The position numbers and the translations under genes were made by a program. From the NCBI RefSeq assembly GCF_013322225.1, contig NZ_JAAMFB010000013.1, positions 1 through 64,000 on the forward strand: DNA of 64,000 nucleotides. Reading direction: 5' to 3'. Under the pieces are notes generated by a model that saw only the letters and a list, made by a program, of their open reading frames with translations, ran no database searches and was not told where the DNA came from. The DNA comes from Agrobacterium larrymoorei (GTDB lineage Bacteria > Pseudomonadota > Alphaproteobacteria > Rhizobiales > Rhizobiaceae). Position 1 is the first letter of the stretch. Each line of letters opens with the position of its first letter. This document shows positions 5,964 to 58,919 of the stretch, piece by piece.

Positions 5964-6044
5964 CTATCCCCAACAATGCAAAGCGGCAGCGTCTCAAAAC
6001 ACACCGCGCTTCCAACCCTCCGCCGTCCGCGCGGGCGGGTCTAT

Positions 6045-6205
6045 CGCGTCAGGCCGGTCTTCTGACTTGGCTTCATCTGCCCGCTGCCGCCTTCCCGATA
6101 ATCAGTGGCTTATGGCAACAGGCATCCGCCTCACAGCGTTGGGCACGTTGCGGGCTTGCACCGCATTCCCGATTCTCCCGCCAAAGGCAGGCACCTGACG
6201 TTAGG
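6045..6205 (-). promoter_or_regulatory. Cobalamin (B12) riboswitch upstream of bluB
   Basis: Read on the minus strand, the leader contains the conserved blocks of the AdoCbl riboswitch in order: an upstream aggtgcctgcc arm, GGGAATGCGGTGCAAGCCCGC-like core, GCCACTG, GGGAAGG, and the B12 box AAGCCAAGTCAGAAGACC followed by GGCCTGAC. Its 3' end is about 85 bases before the bluB start. The position and element order fit repression of bluB by adenosylcobalamin. Confidence 0.95.
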
Positions 6206-6240
6206 CGTTATGGCCAATGTGGCTGGCGAAAGCAACCTGC

Positions 6241-24101: not shown

Positions 24102-24380
24102 ATGCTAGATTTTGAGTGGGATGAGCAGAAAGCAATCACCAATTTTTCGAAACACGGCATCAGCTTTGCCGACGCTTGTACTGTGTTCGATGACCCGTTT
24201 GCGATCGATATCGAAGATAGGTCAATTAATTATGGCGAAGTGCGACGGCGGATTATCGGCGTTGGTCAAAACCGATATCTTACGGTTATCTACACGGAGC
24301 GCGGCGATATCATCCGCTTGATCTCCGCACGAAAAGCAACACGGTTGGAACGACGGGAATATAGCGATGTCAATGGATAA
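24102..24380 (+). CDS. brnT: BrnT family toxin of a type II toxin-antitoxin system
   Basis: The 92-residue protein matches BrnT, a RelE-like ribonuclease toxin. FEWDEQKAITNFSKHGISFADA at the N-terminus holds the conserved D-x-x-K-x-x-x-N-x-x-KHGI pattern, followed by FDDPFAIDIED and the RRIIGVGQNRYLTVIYTERGD strand pair, ending in ISARKATRLERREY. It is expected to cleave RNA when free of antitoxin. It overlaps the next gene by 14 bases, as usual for toxin-antitoxin operons in which the toxin comes first. Confidence 0.9.
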   Translation: MLDFEWDEQKAITNFSKHGISFADACTVFDDPFAIDIEDRSINYGEVRRRIIGVGQNRYLTVIYTERGDIIRLISARKATRLERREYSDVNG

Positions 24381-24702
24381 GTTGCACAAGTCCGATTGGA
24401 AACGCGTAGACACTATGACCGACGAAGAATCGGAAGCAAACGCTCTTGCCGATCCCGACAACCAGCCGATGACGAAGGAGCAATTGCGTTCTGCTCCACG
24501 TATGCCGCAAGTCAAAGTCATTCGCCGCGCACTTCGCTTGACTCAGGAAGAATTTTCGACCCGCTACCAGATACCGCTCGGCACATTGCGAGATTGGGAG
24601 CAAAACCGTAGCGAACCGGATCAGCCCGCTAAAGCTTATTTGAAAGTGATCTCCGCCGATCCGGCTGGCACCGCAGCAGCCTTGCACAAGGGCGCTGCGT
24701 GA
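24367..24702 (+). CDS. Xre-type helix-turn-helix antitoxin partner of BrnT
   Basis: The 111-residue protein overlaps brnT and occupies the antitoxin position. The N-terminal half (DWKRVDTMTDEESEANALAD) resembles the toxin-wrapping part of BrnA-type antitoxins. The C-terminal half is a Cro/C1-type helix-turn-helix: VIRRALRLTQEEFSTRYQIP then LGTLRDWEQNRSEP. Classical BrnA has a ribbon-helix-helix domain, so this is a pairing with a different DNA-binding module. It should neutralise BrnT and autoregulate the operon. Confidence 0.82.
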   Translation: MSMDKLHKSDWKRVDTMTDEESEANALADPDNQPMTKEQLRSAPRMPQVKVIRRALRLTQEEFSTRYQIPLGTLRDWEQNRSEPDQPAKAYLKVISADPAGTAAALHKGAA

Positions 24703-24733: not shown

Positions 24734-25000
24734 CTACATCCGCCGTGCTTGCAGCCGCCGCTTGTCCCGCTCCACATACTCATGCCCCAGGCTCGTCAGC
24801 CGAAACTGGCGCTTCTGAAACTCACCGCGGATTTGGATGAAACCCTGTTCTTCGGCCTCATAAAGCGTCTTTAACCCCGTACCTTTGGGCGGGGTTTGCC
24901 AGTCGAGGCCGACAGCGGCGTGCAGGAGTACCATGATTTTAATAATGTGAAATCTCCATGGCCGCGCTTGCGACGGCCGTGTCATATGGCAAACAGACAT
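24734..25000 (-). CDS. Short hypothetical protein, coding status uncertain
   Basis: A frame of up to 88 residues, whose C-terminal part (KTLYEAEEQGFIQIRGEFQK then FRLTSLGHEYVERDKRRL) reads like the wing and last helix of a small winged-helix domain. No start has a good ribosome site: candidates are 25000, 24985 and 24934. I do not recognise a family. It lies convergent to the antitoxin gene in the accessory patch and could be a decayed gene. Confidence 0.35.
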   Translation of the reverse strand: MSVCHMTRPSQARPWRFHIIKIMVLLHAAVGLDWQTPPKGTGLKTLYEAEEQGFIQIRGEFQKRQFRLTSLGHEYVERDKRRLQARRM

Positions 25001-25059
25001 TTATGACCCGCACTCCATTCCGGCATCAAACCGTCGAAATGGAGTGGCGATGGCCGAGC

Positions 25060-25188
25060 TTACTTTTTCTTCGTGTTGCTTTCGCTGGACTTCACCTGCG
25101 ATCCGAGCGTTGGCGCAGCGGCGGGGGCCGCTTTGTCTTTCTTCGGCTTTCTGACTTCCTTGTTGCTGCGCATCTGACCTTTGGCCAT
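25060..25188 (-). CDS. Small lysine-rich protein (42 residues)
   Basis: The frame encodes a 42-residue, very basic and disordered-looking peptide beginning MAKGQMRSNKEVRKPKKDK and ending SSESNTKKK. AAGGAG sits nine bases before the ATG, an unusually strong ribosome site for so short a gene, which decides both start and coding status. Similar MAKGQ-RSN-KE-KKPKK peptides are, to my knowledge, widespread in Proteobacteria with unknown function. It may bind nucleic acid given its charge, which is inference. It is divergent from the structured RNA candidate that begins about 240 bases away. Confidence 0.75.
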   Translation of the reverse strand: MAKGQMRSNKEVRKPKKDKAAPAAAPTLGSQVKSSESNTKKK

Positions 25189-25394
25189 CGGAATATCTCC
25201 TTGTTTCGGCATGTGATTTAGCGGCCAAGTAAGCGGTAAAGGCAAGACATTTCTGATCGACCCTGCCAAGCCGCGCACGACTGCGCCTGTTTTACCACGT
25301 CAGTTGGCACCCGGATCTGCCTCGGAACGCTTTTTGAATGTCGCGCTCCAGCCTGTCCGAATAAACCGGCCCTCCATAGAAGATGCCGGAAACT

Positions 25395-25423
25395 TTGGCC
25401 ATGAGAAGAAAATGCAAAATAAT
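25395..25423 (+). promoter_or_regulatory. Candidate sigma-70 promoter of the structured RNA
   Basis: TTGGCC (25395-25400), a 17-base spacer and AATAAT (25418-25423) match the -35/-10 pattern at 4 and 5 of 6 positions. The predicted transcript start, about 25430, falls just before the first stem at 25442. Confidence 0.4.
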
Positions 25424-25429
25424 TCTCCG

Positions 25430-26288
25430 GAAATTTTCCCAGCCTGCCCTGACCCATGCCTAGAATGCTCGCGTCCCGTCACGGATACACCGCAAGGCGT
25501 TGCGGCGAGGCGGGACCGGCGCTGGTGGTGAAGTGTATACGCAGACTTTTCATCACCGGGGTCAGGCAGCAAATCCCCCCGGCGGCAACGGGCGGGCGAA
25601 CAGGGCGTCGGTTTCGGACCGGCTGACGCAGTTCTCCCGATGCCCGACCTGGCCGGATCGAAGGCGGCAGTGCGAACAACGGCTGCAGGCTTTCGATCCA
25701 TCCGTCAGGTTCTTCACCGCCGGGTGTACCGACAGCCGATGATCCTCAAGGCCGAACGCGACCGTGAGGATGAGAGGCGAAAATCAGGCGGTACACAGGA
25801 ACACGCTGCATCTGCCCCGCCCATCTGAAAAGGTGGACGACGGATCGCAGGACGGACATCTGGCCGGGGCTGGCCGGTGAACGTCCTGCGGAAAACGGAT
25901 CGAGGCTGCGGGCGTTTCGTCAGAATGAGCGCCCTCATCCCCGAAGGCAGATACGGCCGAACTGGCAGGGCGATGATCCAGCAATGGAGGATCGCACCCG
26001 GATGGGAAGGGTTGGACCTTGGATATGTCCGACCGGTTTTCCGGCAAGGCCTATCACCCTTGCCATCCGGTTTCTGCCAGCCATGGCAAGCGGATTGCTG
26101 TCTGACCAAAAAAGCTGAACGGGGCGCTGAGAGGTGCCACCTACCAAACTACCAAACGAGGCAGCTTTCAACGCCCCGTCCGAAATGCCATTGCCTCAAG
26201 GGGCGATGGAGAACATGAGAAGATCAAGCCACGGGCAGATGCTGCCGCGTGAACGGCGAAGCTTGCTTGGAAGCTGGCCGGGATTTTT
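25430..26288 (+). ncRNA. Candidate large, highly structured non-coding RNA (~860 nt)
   Basis: No protein frame fits this stretch, but long complementary segments tile it. Examples: 25442-25455 with 25559-25570 (12 bp) closing a three-way junction with 25473-25516 and 25524-25557; 25655-25662/25692-25699; 25724-25731/25789-25796 enclosing 25742-25748/25765-25771; a GAAA-capped hairpin 25821-25836; 25846-25854/25882-25890 (9 bp); 25919-25924/26101-26106 and 25962-25968/26074-26080 enclosing 25998-26005/26063-26070 and 26011-26017/26027-26033; 26119-26126/26172-26179; 26188-26195/26202-26209. Five G-U pairs exist only in plus orientation. A promoter and a terminator flank it. I do not recognise it as RNase P RNA, tmRNA or a group II intron. 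Confidence 0.55.
26254..26288 (+). terminator. Rho-independent terminator of the structured RNA
   Basis: CGGC (26254-26257) and AGCTT (26260-26264) pair with AAGCT (26271-26275) and GCCG (26277-26280). GGA and five T residues follow. Confidence 0.55.
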
Positions 26289-26384
26289 GACATTACGAGC
26301 GAGGTAAACCCCTCTAGCCGAGAGCGGCACTGCTTTGCCCTTTCTCGATGTTAAATAAAAGGGTAAAGCGGTGCGACGGGTTTT

Positions 26385-26460
26385 CCTCTCCCCCTGTGGG
26401 AGAGGATAGATAATCTCAGACTTCGCAAAGCGAAGTCCTAGATTGTCTTGGTGAGGGGTC
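26385..26460 (+). repeat. Intergenic palindromic element, family A copy 4
   Basis: cctctccccctgtgggagagg, then a diverged hairpin around gacttcgcaaagcgaagtc, ending ggtgaggggtc. The hairpin differs in sequence from copies 1 and 3 but keeps its symmetry, so compensatory change is evident. Confidence 0.75.
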
Positions 26461-26484
26461 ACGCCGTTGACACCACCCCGCCCA

Positions 26485-26946
26485 TCAAACCCATCCGAGC
26501 GTCACAAAAGCAAGCGCCGCATAACGCCCGACCTTGGCAATGGAAACGATCAGGAGAAACGACGCCAGCGGTTCCCGCATCACGCCTGCTACCATCGTCA
26601 GCGGATCGCCGATGATCGGCAGCCAGCTTGCCAGCAACGACCAGCGGCCATAGCGGGCGTACCAGCGCTGGGCGCGCTCCAGCTTTGCTTGCGAAACGGG
26701 AAACCACCGGCGTCCGCGATACTGCTCGATGCTTCTGCCGAGATACCAGTTGATGATGGAACCGAGAATGTTACCGAGGCTTGCCACGAAAACGAGCAGT
26801 GCAACGGAGTGTTCTTTTGCCAATATGAGATAGACCAGCACGGATTCTGACTGCGCGGGAATGAGTGTCGCAGCCAGAAAGGCGGAGGCGAAGAGGCCGA
26901 GATATGCGCCGATTTCACCGGTCACGCCTTCAACCCCGGCAGGCAC
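26485..26946 (-). CDS. YqaA/DedA-like membrane protein
   Basis: About 153 residues with four hydrophobic segments. ETRR-type acidic loops are replaced by AATLIPAQSESVLVYLILA, then LVFVASLGNILGSIINWYLGRSIE, and a re-entrant-like LLASWLPIIGDPLTMVAGVMREP, the signature of the YqaA branch of the DedA/SNARE-associated family. These proteins are inner-membrane transporters or scramblase relatives, often linked to envelope integrity. The start is a GTG at 26946; an in-frame GTG at 26925 is also possible, and neither has a clear ribosome site. Confidence 0.82.
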   Translation of the reverse strand: MPAGVEGVTGEIGAYLGLFASAFLAATLIPAQSESVLVYLILAKEHSVALLVFVASLGNILGSIINWYLGRSIEQYRGRRWFPVSQAKLERAQRWYARYGRWSLLASWLPIIGDPLTMVAGVMREPLASFLLIVSIAKVGRYAALAFVTLGWV

Positions 26947-58472: not shown

Positions 58473-58919
58473 CATCGCATTTCCTTTCAGAATGTTACAC
58501 CGGTCTGTTGCCAAACCGGATTAAGGAAACACGCCCTCCTCTGAAGTCTGATTTCCAGACCTCTGACAGGTTTCTCACATTTGCGAATGGAGAAGCCACG
58601 GGACATGTCAGTTAAGGTCGATTGCCGAACGACAGTTCAAGCTGCAAGGCAACCAACGAAACACACCGGACATTGCTGCCCGGCGTTGGTGGGGCTTCTA
58701 TGTGGCCTTCATAAAATTGTCAACGAGAAAAAAACTTCGTGACTGCTCTTGAAACGCTTTTTAGCCACATTATTTCCTCGTCGTGATCAGGACTCGGGCC
58801 CCTCTGGCGTATTACCGGACAATACGCGATGTCGAGTCTCTAAAGGTTGGGGCCACGTCTATTGTCTGTCACGCGTTCCCCAGCCGTTAAGCCAACCTCG
58901 TCCGGACAAGGGTTGACTG
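58473..58919 (+). promoter_or_regulatory. terC leader with two mutually exclusive helices
   Basis: The right half (58790-58919) is a structured leader. GACTCG/CGAGTC (58791-58796/58833-58838) encloses GCGTATT/AATACGC (58807-58813/58821-58827). CCAACCT at 58892-58898 can pair either with AGGTTGG (58844-58850) or, as CAACC, with GGTTG (58911-58915), the latter covering the AAGGG ribosome site at 58908-58912. This is the layout of a translational switch. The canonical yybP-ykoY manganese riboswitch sequence was not found. The left part (58473-58790) holds the rpsD promoter and no gene. Confidence 0.5.

Follow-up and report, generated by a model that had tools for sequence, protein, structure and literature searches.

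Two adjacent small genes, which we take to resemble a BrnT/BrnA toxin-antitoxin pair, lie on the plus strand at 24102-24702 of the window, the 64,000-nucleotide stretch of Agrobacterium larrymoorei DNA that was analysed. A short repeat at 26366-26462 recurs at several related loci and at other sites of the same genome. Between them, on the plus strand at 25473..26288, is what its sequence indicates to be a gene that stands alone and encodes a large structured non-coding RNA of about 815 nucleotides (nt). A promoter-like motif (25434..25466) precedes it, and a terminator-like hairpin followed by five Ts (26266..26288) closes the block. In most full-length copies, homology to the window copy begins at 25464-25482 and stops at 26290-26298. 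The position of the promoter-like motif and the start of homology together place the RNA at about 25473-26288, with a presumptive 5′ end and the T-run as its 3′ end. A preliminary description of the locus gave its span as 25430-26288; the 3′ end holds, and the first 40 or so bases are promoter region instead of RNA.

That description proposed a large structured RNA on the plus strand, with no recognisable protein in the stretch. The nine open reading frame (ORF) translations that overlap the RNA region have no Pfam match at E ≤ 1. Diversity by codon position is flat (0.231/0.233/0.234), with no periodicity, and of 451 gap runs, counted per sequence against the window copy, 401 have a length that is not divisible by three. 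The protein-coding reading was rejected on these grounds. The long chance ORFs in the region could be taken as remnants of a decayed protein gene; however, such ORFs of at least 60 amino acids span most alignment columns, so that the presence of an ORF is uninformative, and with no Pfam match, no codon periodicity and gaps mostly out of frame the probability of a decayed gene is negligible. The stretch folds far better than shuffled controls, a comparison which had been proposed as a check: the plus strand reaches -415.7 kcal/mol compared to -346.2 for the shuffles (sd 7.5; n = 20), a z of -9.3, and the minus strand has a z of -7.6 (20 shuffles).

The promoter-like motif consists of TTTTCCC at 25434-25440 and a -10-like TAGAAT at 25461-25466. 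Its -35 side is atypical for a housekeeping promoter. Searched as a pattern within 60 bases 5′ of the 5′ hairpin (TTTTCCCC with at most two mismatches, then N13-18 and YAnnMT), it was present in 83 of 116 independent upstream regions, selected by script as mutually dissimilar, compared with 0, 3 and 0 of 116 in control windows farther upstream. Since the motif was derived from the same RNA family, this result shows conservation and not activity. The sigma-70-like promoter first proposed, a match at 25395-25423, is not this conserved motif, which sits about 40 bases downstream. At the 3′ end, where a hairpin with five Ts had been noted, a terminator-like hairpin was found. In the long-form alignment described below, 24 of 26 copies end in at least five Ts, the ends having been positioned by a script that seeks the terminator-like motif itself.

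Paired positions were taken from consensus structures predicted by RNAalifold. Alignment A4 contains 26 Agrobacterium long forms out of 31 candidates; L064, L065 and L081, which contain N, were omitted, as were L074 and L084, for which no 3′ end was located by the script. Its consensus fold has a value of -477.6 on the plus strand vs. -408.3 on the minus strand. The predicted structure, all on the plus strand, begins with a 5′ domain at 25472..25516, in which an outer helix (25472-25483/25506-25516) encloses an inner hairpin (25490-25495/25500-25505) with a GGCG loop. Column pairs 23-32 and 24-31 of this inner hairpin are significant in a tree-aware covariation test in two other alignments, A1 and A2. 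It is followed by a second hairpin of 15 bp (25522..25559) with two-sided changes in 10 of the 15 pairs, three of which are significant. A multibranch domain is closed by a central helix, 25560-25578/26090-26107, with 16 pairs that are 95% paired in the 26 copies; four of these have two-sided changes, and 25565-26102 and 25571-26096 are significant in the tree-aware test. The domain contains, at 25579..26089, the inner region that is expanded in the Agrobacterium long form; its helices were tabulated from A4 and include hairpins at 25595-25637, 25724-25796, 25805-25957, 25963-25996 and 25997-26071. A conserved 3′ hairpin follows at 26116..26182, where the covariance model R2 matches the window at E 1.3e-18. 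The last hairpin, CCACGGGCAG..CTGCCGCGTG at 26230..26251, has 9 pairs, 100% paired in 26 copies that hold no sequence variation able to test them.

Several stems had already been proposed from the window sequence, with mixed outcomes. The perfect stem at 25846-25890 corresponds to 25845-25853/25883-25891 in A4 and has two-sided changes in 4 of 8 pairs. In the nested pair of stems at 25724-25796, the outer one (25724-25733/25788-25796) is in the plus-strand consensus, with no two-sided change, and the inner 7-bp stem is retained only in part, with three pairs at 81%. The stem of the GAAA hairpin, 25817-25825/25832-25839, holds, with two-sided changes in 5 of 9 pairs; the sequence of its loop varies. 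Two stems did not survive the comparison: a 12-bp stem at 25442-25570 has its 5′ half in the promoter region, 25560-25578 being paired with 26090-26107, and a closing stem at 25919-25924/26101-26106 is absent from the consensus, in which the central helix closes the domain.

The spacing between the 5′ and 3′ hairpins distinguishes a long form, with about 510-640 nt in most Agrobacterium copies, from a short form, with 208-251 nt in 29 sequences. These 29 short forms measure 286-328 nt up to the 3′ hairpin. Around a shared core, members of the family vary in length between a few hundred and about 840 nt, and the family is often multi-copy. To judge from the alignments, this core, made up of the 5′ domain, the second hairpin, the multibranch closing helix and the 3′ hairpin, is structurally constrained.

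Covariation, the lack of which would by the preliminary description have told against its proposal, is present in both forms and exceeds controls. In the short form (alignment A1, 29 sequences), 31 of 73 pairs are altered on both sides in at least one sequence, and in the long form (A4) 60 of 237 pairs have two-sided changes. The value observed for the short form was matched by none of 500 shuffles in any of five measures, and structures slid along the alignment gave 9-12 two-sided pairs vs. 31 observed. Two further alignments were used: A2, with 52 of 71 dereplicated sequences, 19 having been omitted by hand to limit its size, and A3, with all 41. The tree-aware test, which is self-written, R-scape-like and unvalidated, found 11 of 237 pairs in A4, 4 of 73 in A1 and 4 of 23 in A2 at E < 0.05. 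At the whole-alignment threshold, the single column pair above it in A4 belongs to the structure. In A1, two of the three column pairs above this threshold are outside the structure; both include column 77, its partners being columns 53 and 88, themselves paired with one another.

The strand was assigned by comparing G-U with A-C combinations, the argument first made for the plus strand from the window alone. In the plus-strand fold of A4 there are 611 G-U vs. 97 A-C cells. Folding itself favours G-U, and the count was therefore repeated on pairs predicted on both strands: the 176 such pairs in A4 have 218 G-U vs. 71 A-C, and the corresponding counts are 122 vs. 42 in A1, 75 vs. 11 in A2, and 36 vs. 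11 in A3. When the minus strand of A4 is folded alone and read in its own letters, there are 326 G-U vs. 241 A-C. The excess of G-U in pairs common to both strands indicates that the plus strand is the structured one, as had been proposed. The alignments thus display the two general signs of a structured non-coding RNA, compensatory changes above controls and a strand bias, and it is almost certain that a gene family with the window copy as a member exists as structured RNA. The original proposal stands in its essentials: homologues exist, pairs covary more than in controls, the gene has a conserved promoter-like motif before it and a terminator-like end, and neither a coding signal nor an Rfam match was found. 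Its strand was right, and it erred in some stems, the promoter and the 5′ end.

DNA matches to the window RNA were found in 13 of 39 genomes of the same genus and in 14 of 61 genomes in a mixed draw of relatives, usually several per genome. The shorter form came to light through 18 plasmid records (Shinella, Rhizobium, Agrobacterium, Neorhizobium, Allorhizobium and Ciceribacter) with weaker or partial matches; Allorhizobium pseudoryzae is among the carriers of the RNA. The two Agrobacterium plasmid records have a 92-base fragment only; the one in A. fabrum plasmid pAtN33_94 (L097, 2501-2592) resembles window 25726-25819 and is intergenic, beside a SIR2-family gene. A 33-base pattern for the 5′ hairpin occurs in 53 of 394 genomes of the family Rhizobiaceae, with 0 in every row for the reversed control pattern, and in at least 119 GTDB genome stretches, including Agrobacterium rosae, A. 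rubi, A. bohemicum, Neorhizobium, Shinella and Xaviernesmea.

These searches were extended with two covariance models: R1, built from 52 sequences of the 5′ domain, and R2, built from 41 of the 3′ hairpin. Whenever more than 40 genomes were searched, the filters were stricter, at the cost of weak matches. Within the genus R1 gave 46 matches in 11 of 39 genomes, and in Rhizobiaceae it matched 61 of 394 genomes in 17 of 109 genera. In an order-wide draw, for which the share of genomes from other families is only partly listed, it matched 5 of 397 genomes, all five in the window's family and the window's own genome among them. R2 is more widely distributed, with 79 of 394 Rhizobiaceae genomes and 29 of 109 genera. 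In two genomes with no R1 match (G094, genus g57, and G207, g83), visual inspection shows a likeness to the family core in the sequence ahead of the R2 hairpin, and more diverged members of the family therefore probably exist. There are up to 10 R1 matches per genome, a count of 5′ domains, some of which are tandem duplicates within one RNA copy; the window's own draft genome has one. Tandem duplications of the 5′ domain, 88-160 bases apart, were seen in G033 (C4, C15, C18) and G341 (C24, C27), and of the 3′ hairpin in G033 (C15:12338-12560 and C21:232088-232254).

The Rfam collection includes HEARO and group II introns. It also includes GOLLD, ROOL and OLE (PMC12286853). A search against these five had been suggested at the outset. 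A cmscan of the whole window with the 4227 families of Rfam 15 at gathering scores gave only cobalamin, tRNA and terC, none of them in the RNA region, and there was no match at E ≤ 1 on 24900-26500 and none in 10 related loci; a known Rfam family was rejected on this basis. The cobalamin riboswitch is at 6035-6213 (minus strand), the terC RNA at 58786-58844 (plus strand), and a single tRNA was found in the window, about 8.6 kb from the RNA. With a threshold of E ≤ 10, the top match of the short form L237 was ciona-mir-92, on the minus strand with 25.4 bits vs. a cut-off of 56, which was taken as chance. No description of this RNA family was recognised among the papers listed by searches of one open-access library, and it is apparently an undescribed RNA family of Rhizobiaceae.

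An origin of the RNA in phages was considered and rejected: none of 50,697 phage records matched at E ≤ 1e-5, and only two IMG/VR contigs, L250 and L251, have the 5′ pattern. In L250, no phage gene was recognised in the 1,044 bases covered. In the last 1.3 kb of L251 a Mu-like phage seems to interrupt a copy of the RNA gene, the 3′ part of which is missing there; its ORFs are presumably a Mu-like transposase and ATPase.

GOLLD resembles the Rhizobiaceae RNA as a very large, ornate bacterial RNA of unknown function in which a conserved 3′ part adjoins a less conserved one (PMC12286853). It differs in occurring in phages and prophages near tRNA islands, whereas the Rhizobiaceae family is found in chromosomes and large plasmids, often in several copies. 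ROOL is likewise a large ornate RNA with no known protein partner (PMC12286853), but it is phage-borne, and the Rhizobiaceae RNA has no match to it in Rfam by sequence or structure. OLE is also large and structured and acts in a membrane-associated ribonucleoprotein (PMC10898510); no model match to OLE was found, and the Rhizobiaceae RNA has no constant neighbour gene among 191 elements. The raiA motif, or ModT RNA, is another conserved structured bacterial RNA, reported from Bacillota (PMC11706538), in contrast to an RNA of Rhizobiaceae that matches none of the 4227 Rfam models. GOLLD and ROOL assemble as RNA-only nanocages (PMC12286853), and by analogy the Rhizobiaceae RNA might multimerise by itself and need no protein. 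Its similar size and elaborate fold, its variable inner region between conserved ends, and the lack of a constant protein neighbour among the 191 elements would all fit such an assembly, but the RNA matches no Rfam family and is not found in the 50,697 phage records, while GOLLD and ROOL live in phages; we regard self-assembly as unlikely, if worth keeping in mind.

The genomic setting of the copies bears on how the family is inherited. In 6 of 7 drawn genomes of genus g118, three paralogues retain three loci, where the flanks align at 78-97% identity in best blocks of 0.4-2.9 kb on the upstream side and 1.4-3.1 kb on the downstream side. Between orthologues, the RNAs of this genus are 74-97% identical; two of the paralogues are 68-72% identical over most of their length, and the third was unalignable at the cut-off used. 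The seventh genome, G417, has no R1 match, nor have 333 of 394 family genomes under the strict filters; the RNA is therefore dispensable. The retention of three paralogues at three loci in six of seven species argues for largely vertical inheritance. We read the family, on comparative grounds, as probably consisting of largely vertically kept RNA genes with duplication, loss and homogenisation.

The same genomes offer arguments for a selfish or non-autonomous mobile element, either a structured RNA or MITE-like DNA, that spreads between genes and is transcribed incidentally. Up to 10 R1 matches occur in a genome, and most of 15 copies inspected have differing neighbours. Extra copies are nearly identical in two genomes (G229a/d, 98.7%; G341c/d, 97%), and Agrobacterium copies are more alike within a genome (mean similarity 0.871, n = 39) than between genomes (0.760, n = 286). 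A gene beside the window element is, we assume, glycerate-kinase-like; the element is present beside it in G000, G002, G020 and G030 and was not found there in the fetched stretches of G001, G009, G010, G016, G019, G021, G022, G027 and G029. The gene region that precedes the window's element lies 32 bases from the glycerate-kinase-like gene in G019 and about 220 bases from it in G022. A gene between them, presumed to be DedA-like, also comes and goes, and the exact empty site is therefore not clean. A search with locus L061 likewise gave no clean empty site. In genome G015 an ORF that we take to be an IS110-like transposase adjoins two RNA copies (L061 and L063) on the upstream side; a link with IS110 was rejected, as no such ORF was seen beside the other copies of the 15 inspected. 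Several of 15 aligned copies lie among other short repeats.

RIME (Rhizobium intergenic mosaic elements) and other rhizobial repeats are repeated, palindromic and intergenic, as is the Rhizobiaceae RNA, several copies of which lie near short repeats. The RNA differs in being several hundred bases long, in having a promoter-like motif, a fold under constraint and a terminator-like end, and in the synteny of its paralogues. A title on RIME is cited in PMC2873474. Against a mobile element stand the three paralogues syntenic at three loci in six species, the promoter-like motif and a fold under constraint. The window copy has no terminal inverted repeat of at least 12 bases, its sole such pair being internal (25805-25817/26233-26245). 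Among the 25 largest clusters of 823 flanking ORFs from 191 elements, in a survey for which transposases were not a specific target, there is no widely recurring neighbour gene: the largest cluster, of 23, was interpreted as a repeat in translation, and no other exceeds 9. Taken together, we consider incidental transcription of a mobile element improbable, though it deserves consideration.

The reading we prefer, with a probability of roughly 0.6, is that the window RNA is the Agrobacterium long form of a largely vertical, often multi-copy Rhizobiaceae family that acts in trans, most likely through an RNA-binding protein. The RNA would be transcribed independently, and the folded product would work in trans. 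Most likely, an RNA-binding protein would recognise the 3′ hairpin, the RNA serving as its scaffold or titrating partner, and the several paralogues may supply dose or variants. The scaffold or titration role is put forward tentatively, at slightly less than even odds.

To our knowledge, few large structured bacterial RNAs of unknown function have been found. The large RNA described here would be a bacterial gene family in plant-associated Rhizobiaceae, in contrast to the phage-borne GOLLD and ROOL. Several of the host bacteria can be cultured, so that tests of expression, deletion and partners are direct. The family could become a new Rfam class and could account for a set of repeated intergenic stretches in Rhizobiaceae genomes.

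The R2 hairpin also occurs outside the RNA copies, at 26 places in 19 of 39 genomes of the same genus (manual count, best strand). Each of the 26 faces outward at a distance of 160-610 bases from a contig end (14 at contig starts and 12 at contig ends), and R1 has no match in 11 of the 19 genomes. The 12 end hairpins inspected are alike in appearance. Some of the contigs are about 2 Mb, like a linear chromid; not every contig end is a replicon end. Recurrence of the hairpin at these 26 places fits a shared binding factor. A single RNA-binding factor for the 3′ hairpin could connect the RNA family with the upkeep of telomeres or replicons in Agrobacterium, with an unknown older role elsewhere in Rhizobiaceae; the location of 26 of 26 end hairpins near contig ends raised our estimate for this link slightly, from a low starting point, and it is still doubtful. 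If correct, the 3′ hairpin of the RNA would be the same recognition module as the outward-pointing hairpin near linear-chromid ends. Alternatively, the conserved hairpins might act as DNA, as cruciform or single-stranded sites of a REP- or attC-like kind. The 3′ hairpin is a GC-rich near-palindrome, found near contig ends in 26 of 26 places, some of them linear-chromid ends; but the excess of G-U over A-C in pairs common to both strands of A4 points to one structured strand, and a promoter-like motif lies ahead of the whole unit, which makes a purely DNA role quite improbable. At locus L002, on contig C26 of the window's own genome (G000), a 98-base palindrome occupies the contig end (1-98), and a homologue of the 3′ hairpin of the RNA is at 445-498, about 350 bases inward. 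We take this palindrome to be telomere-like, as it resembles a TelA site.
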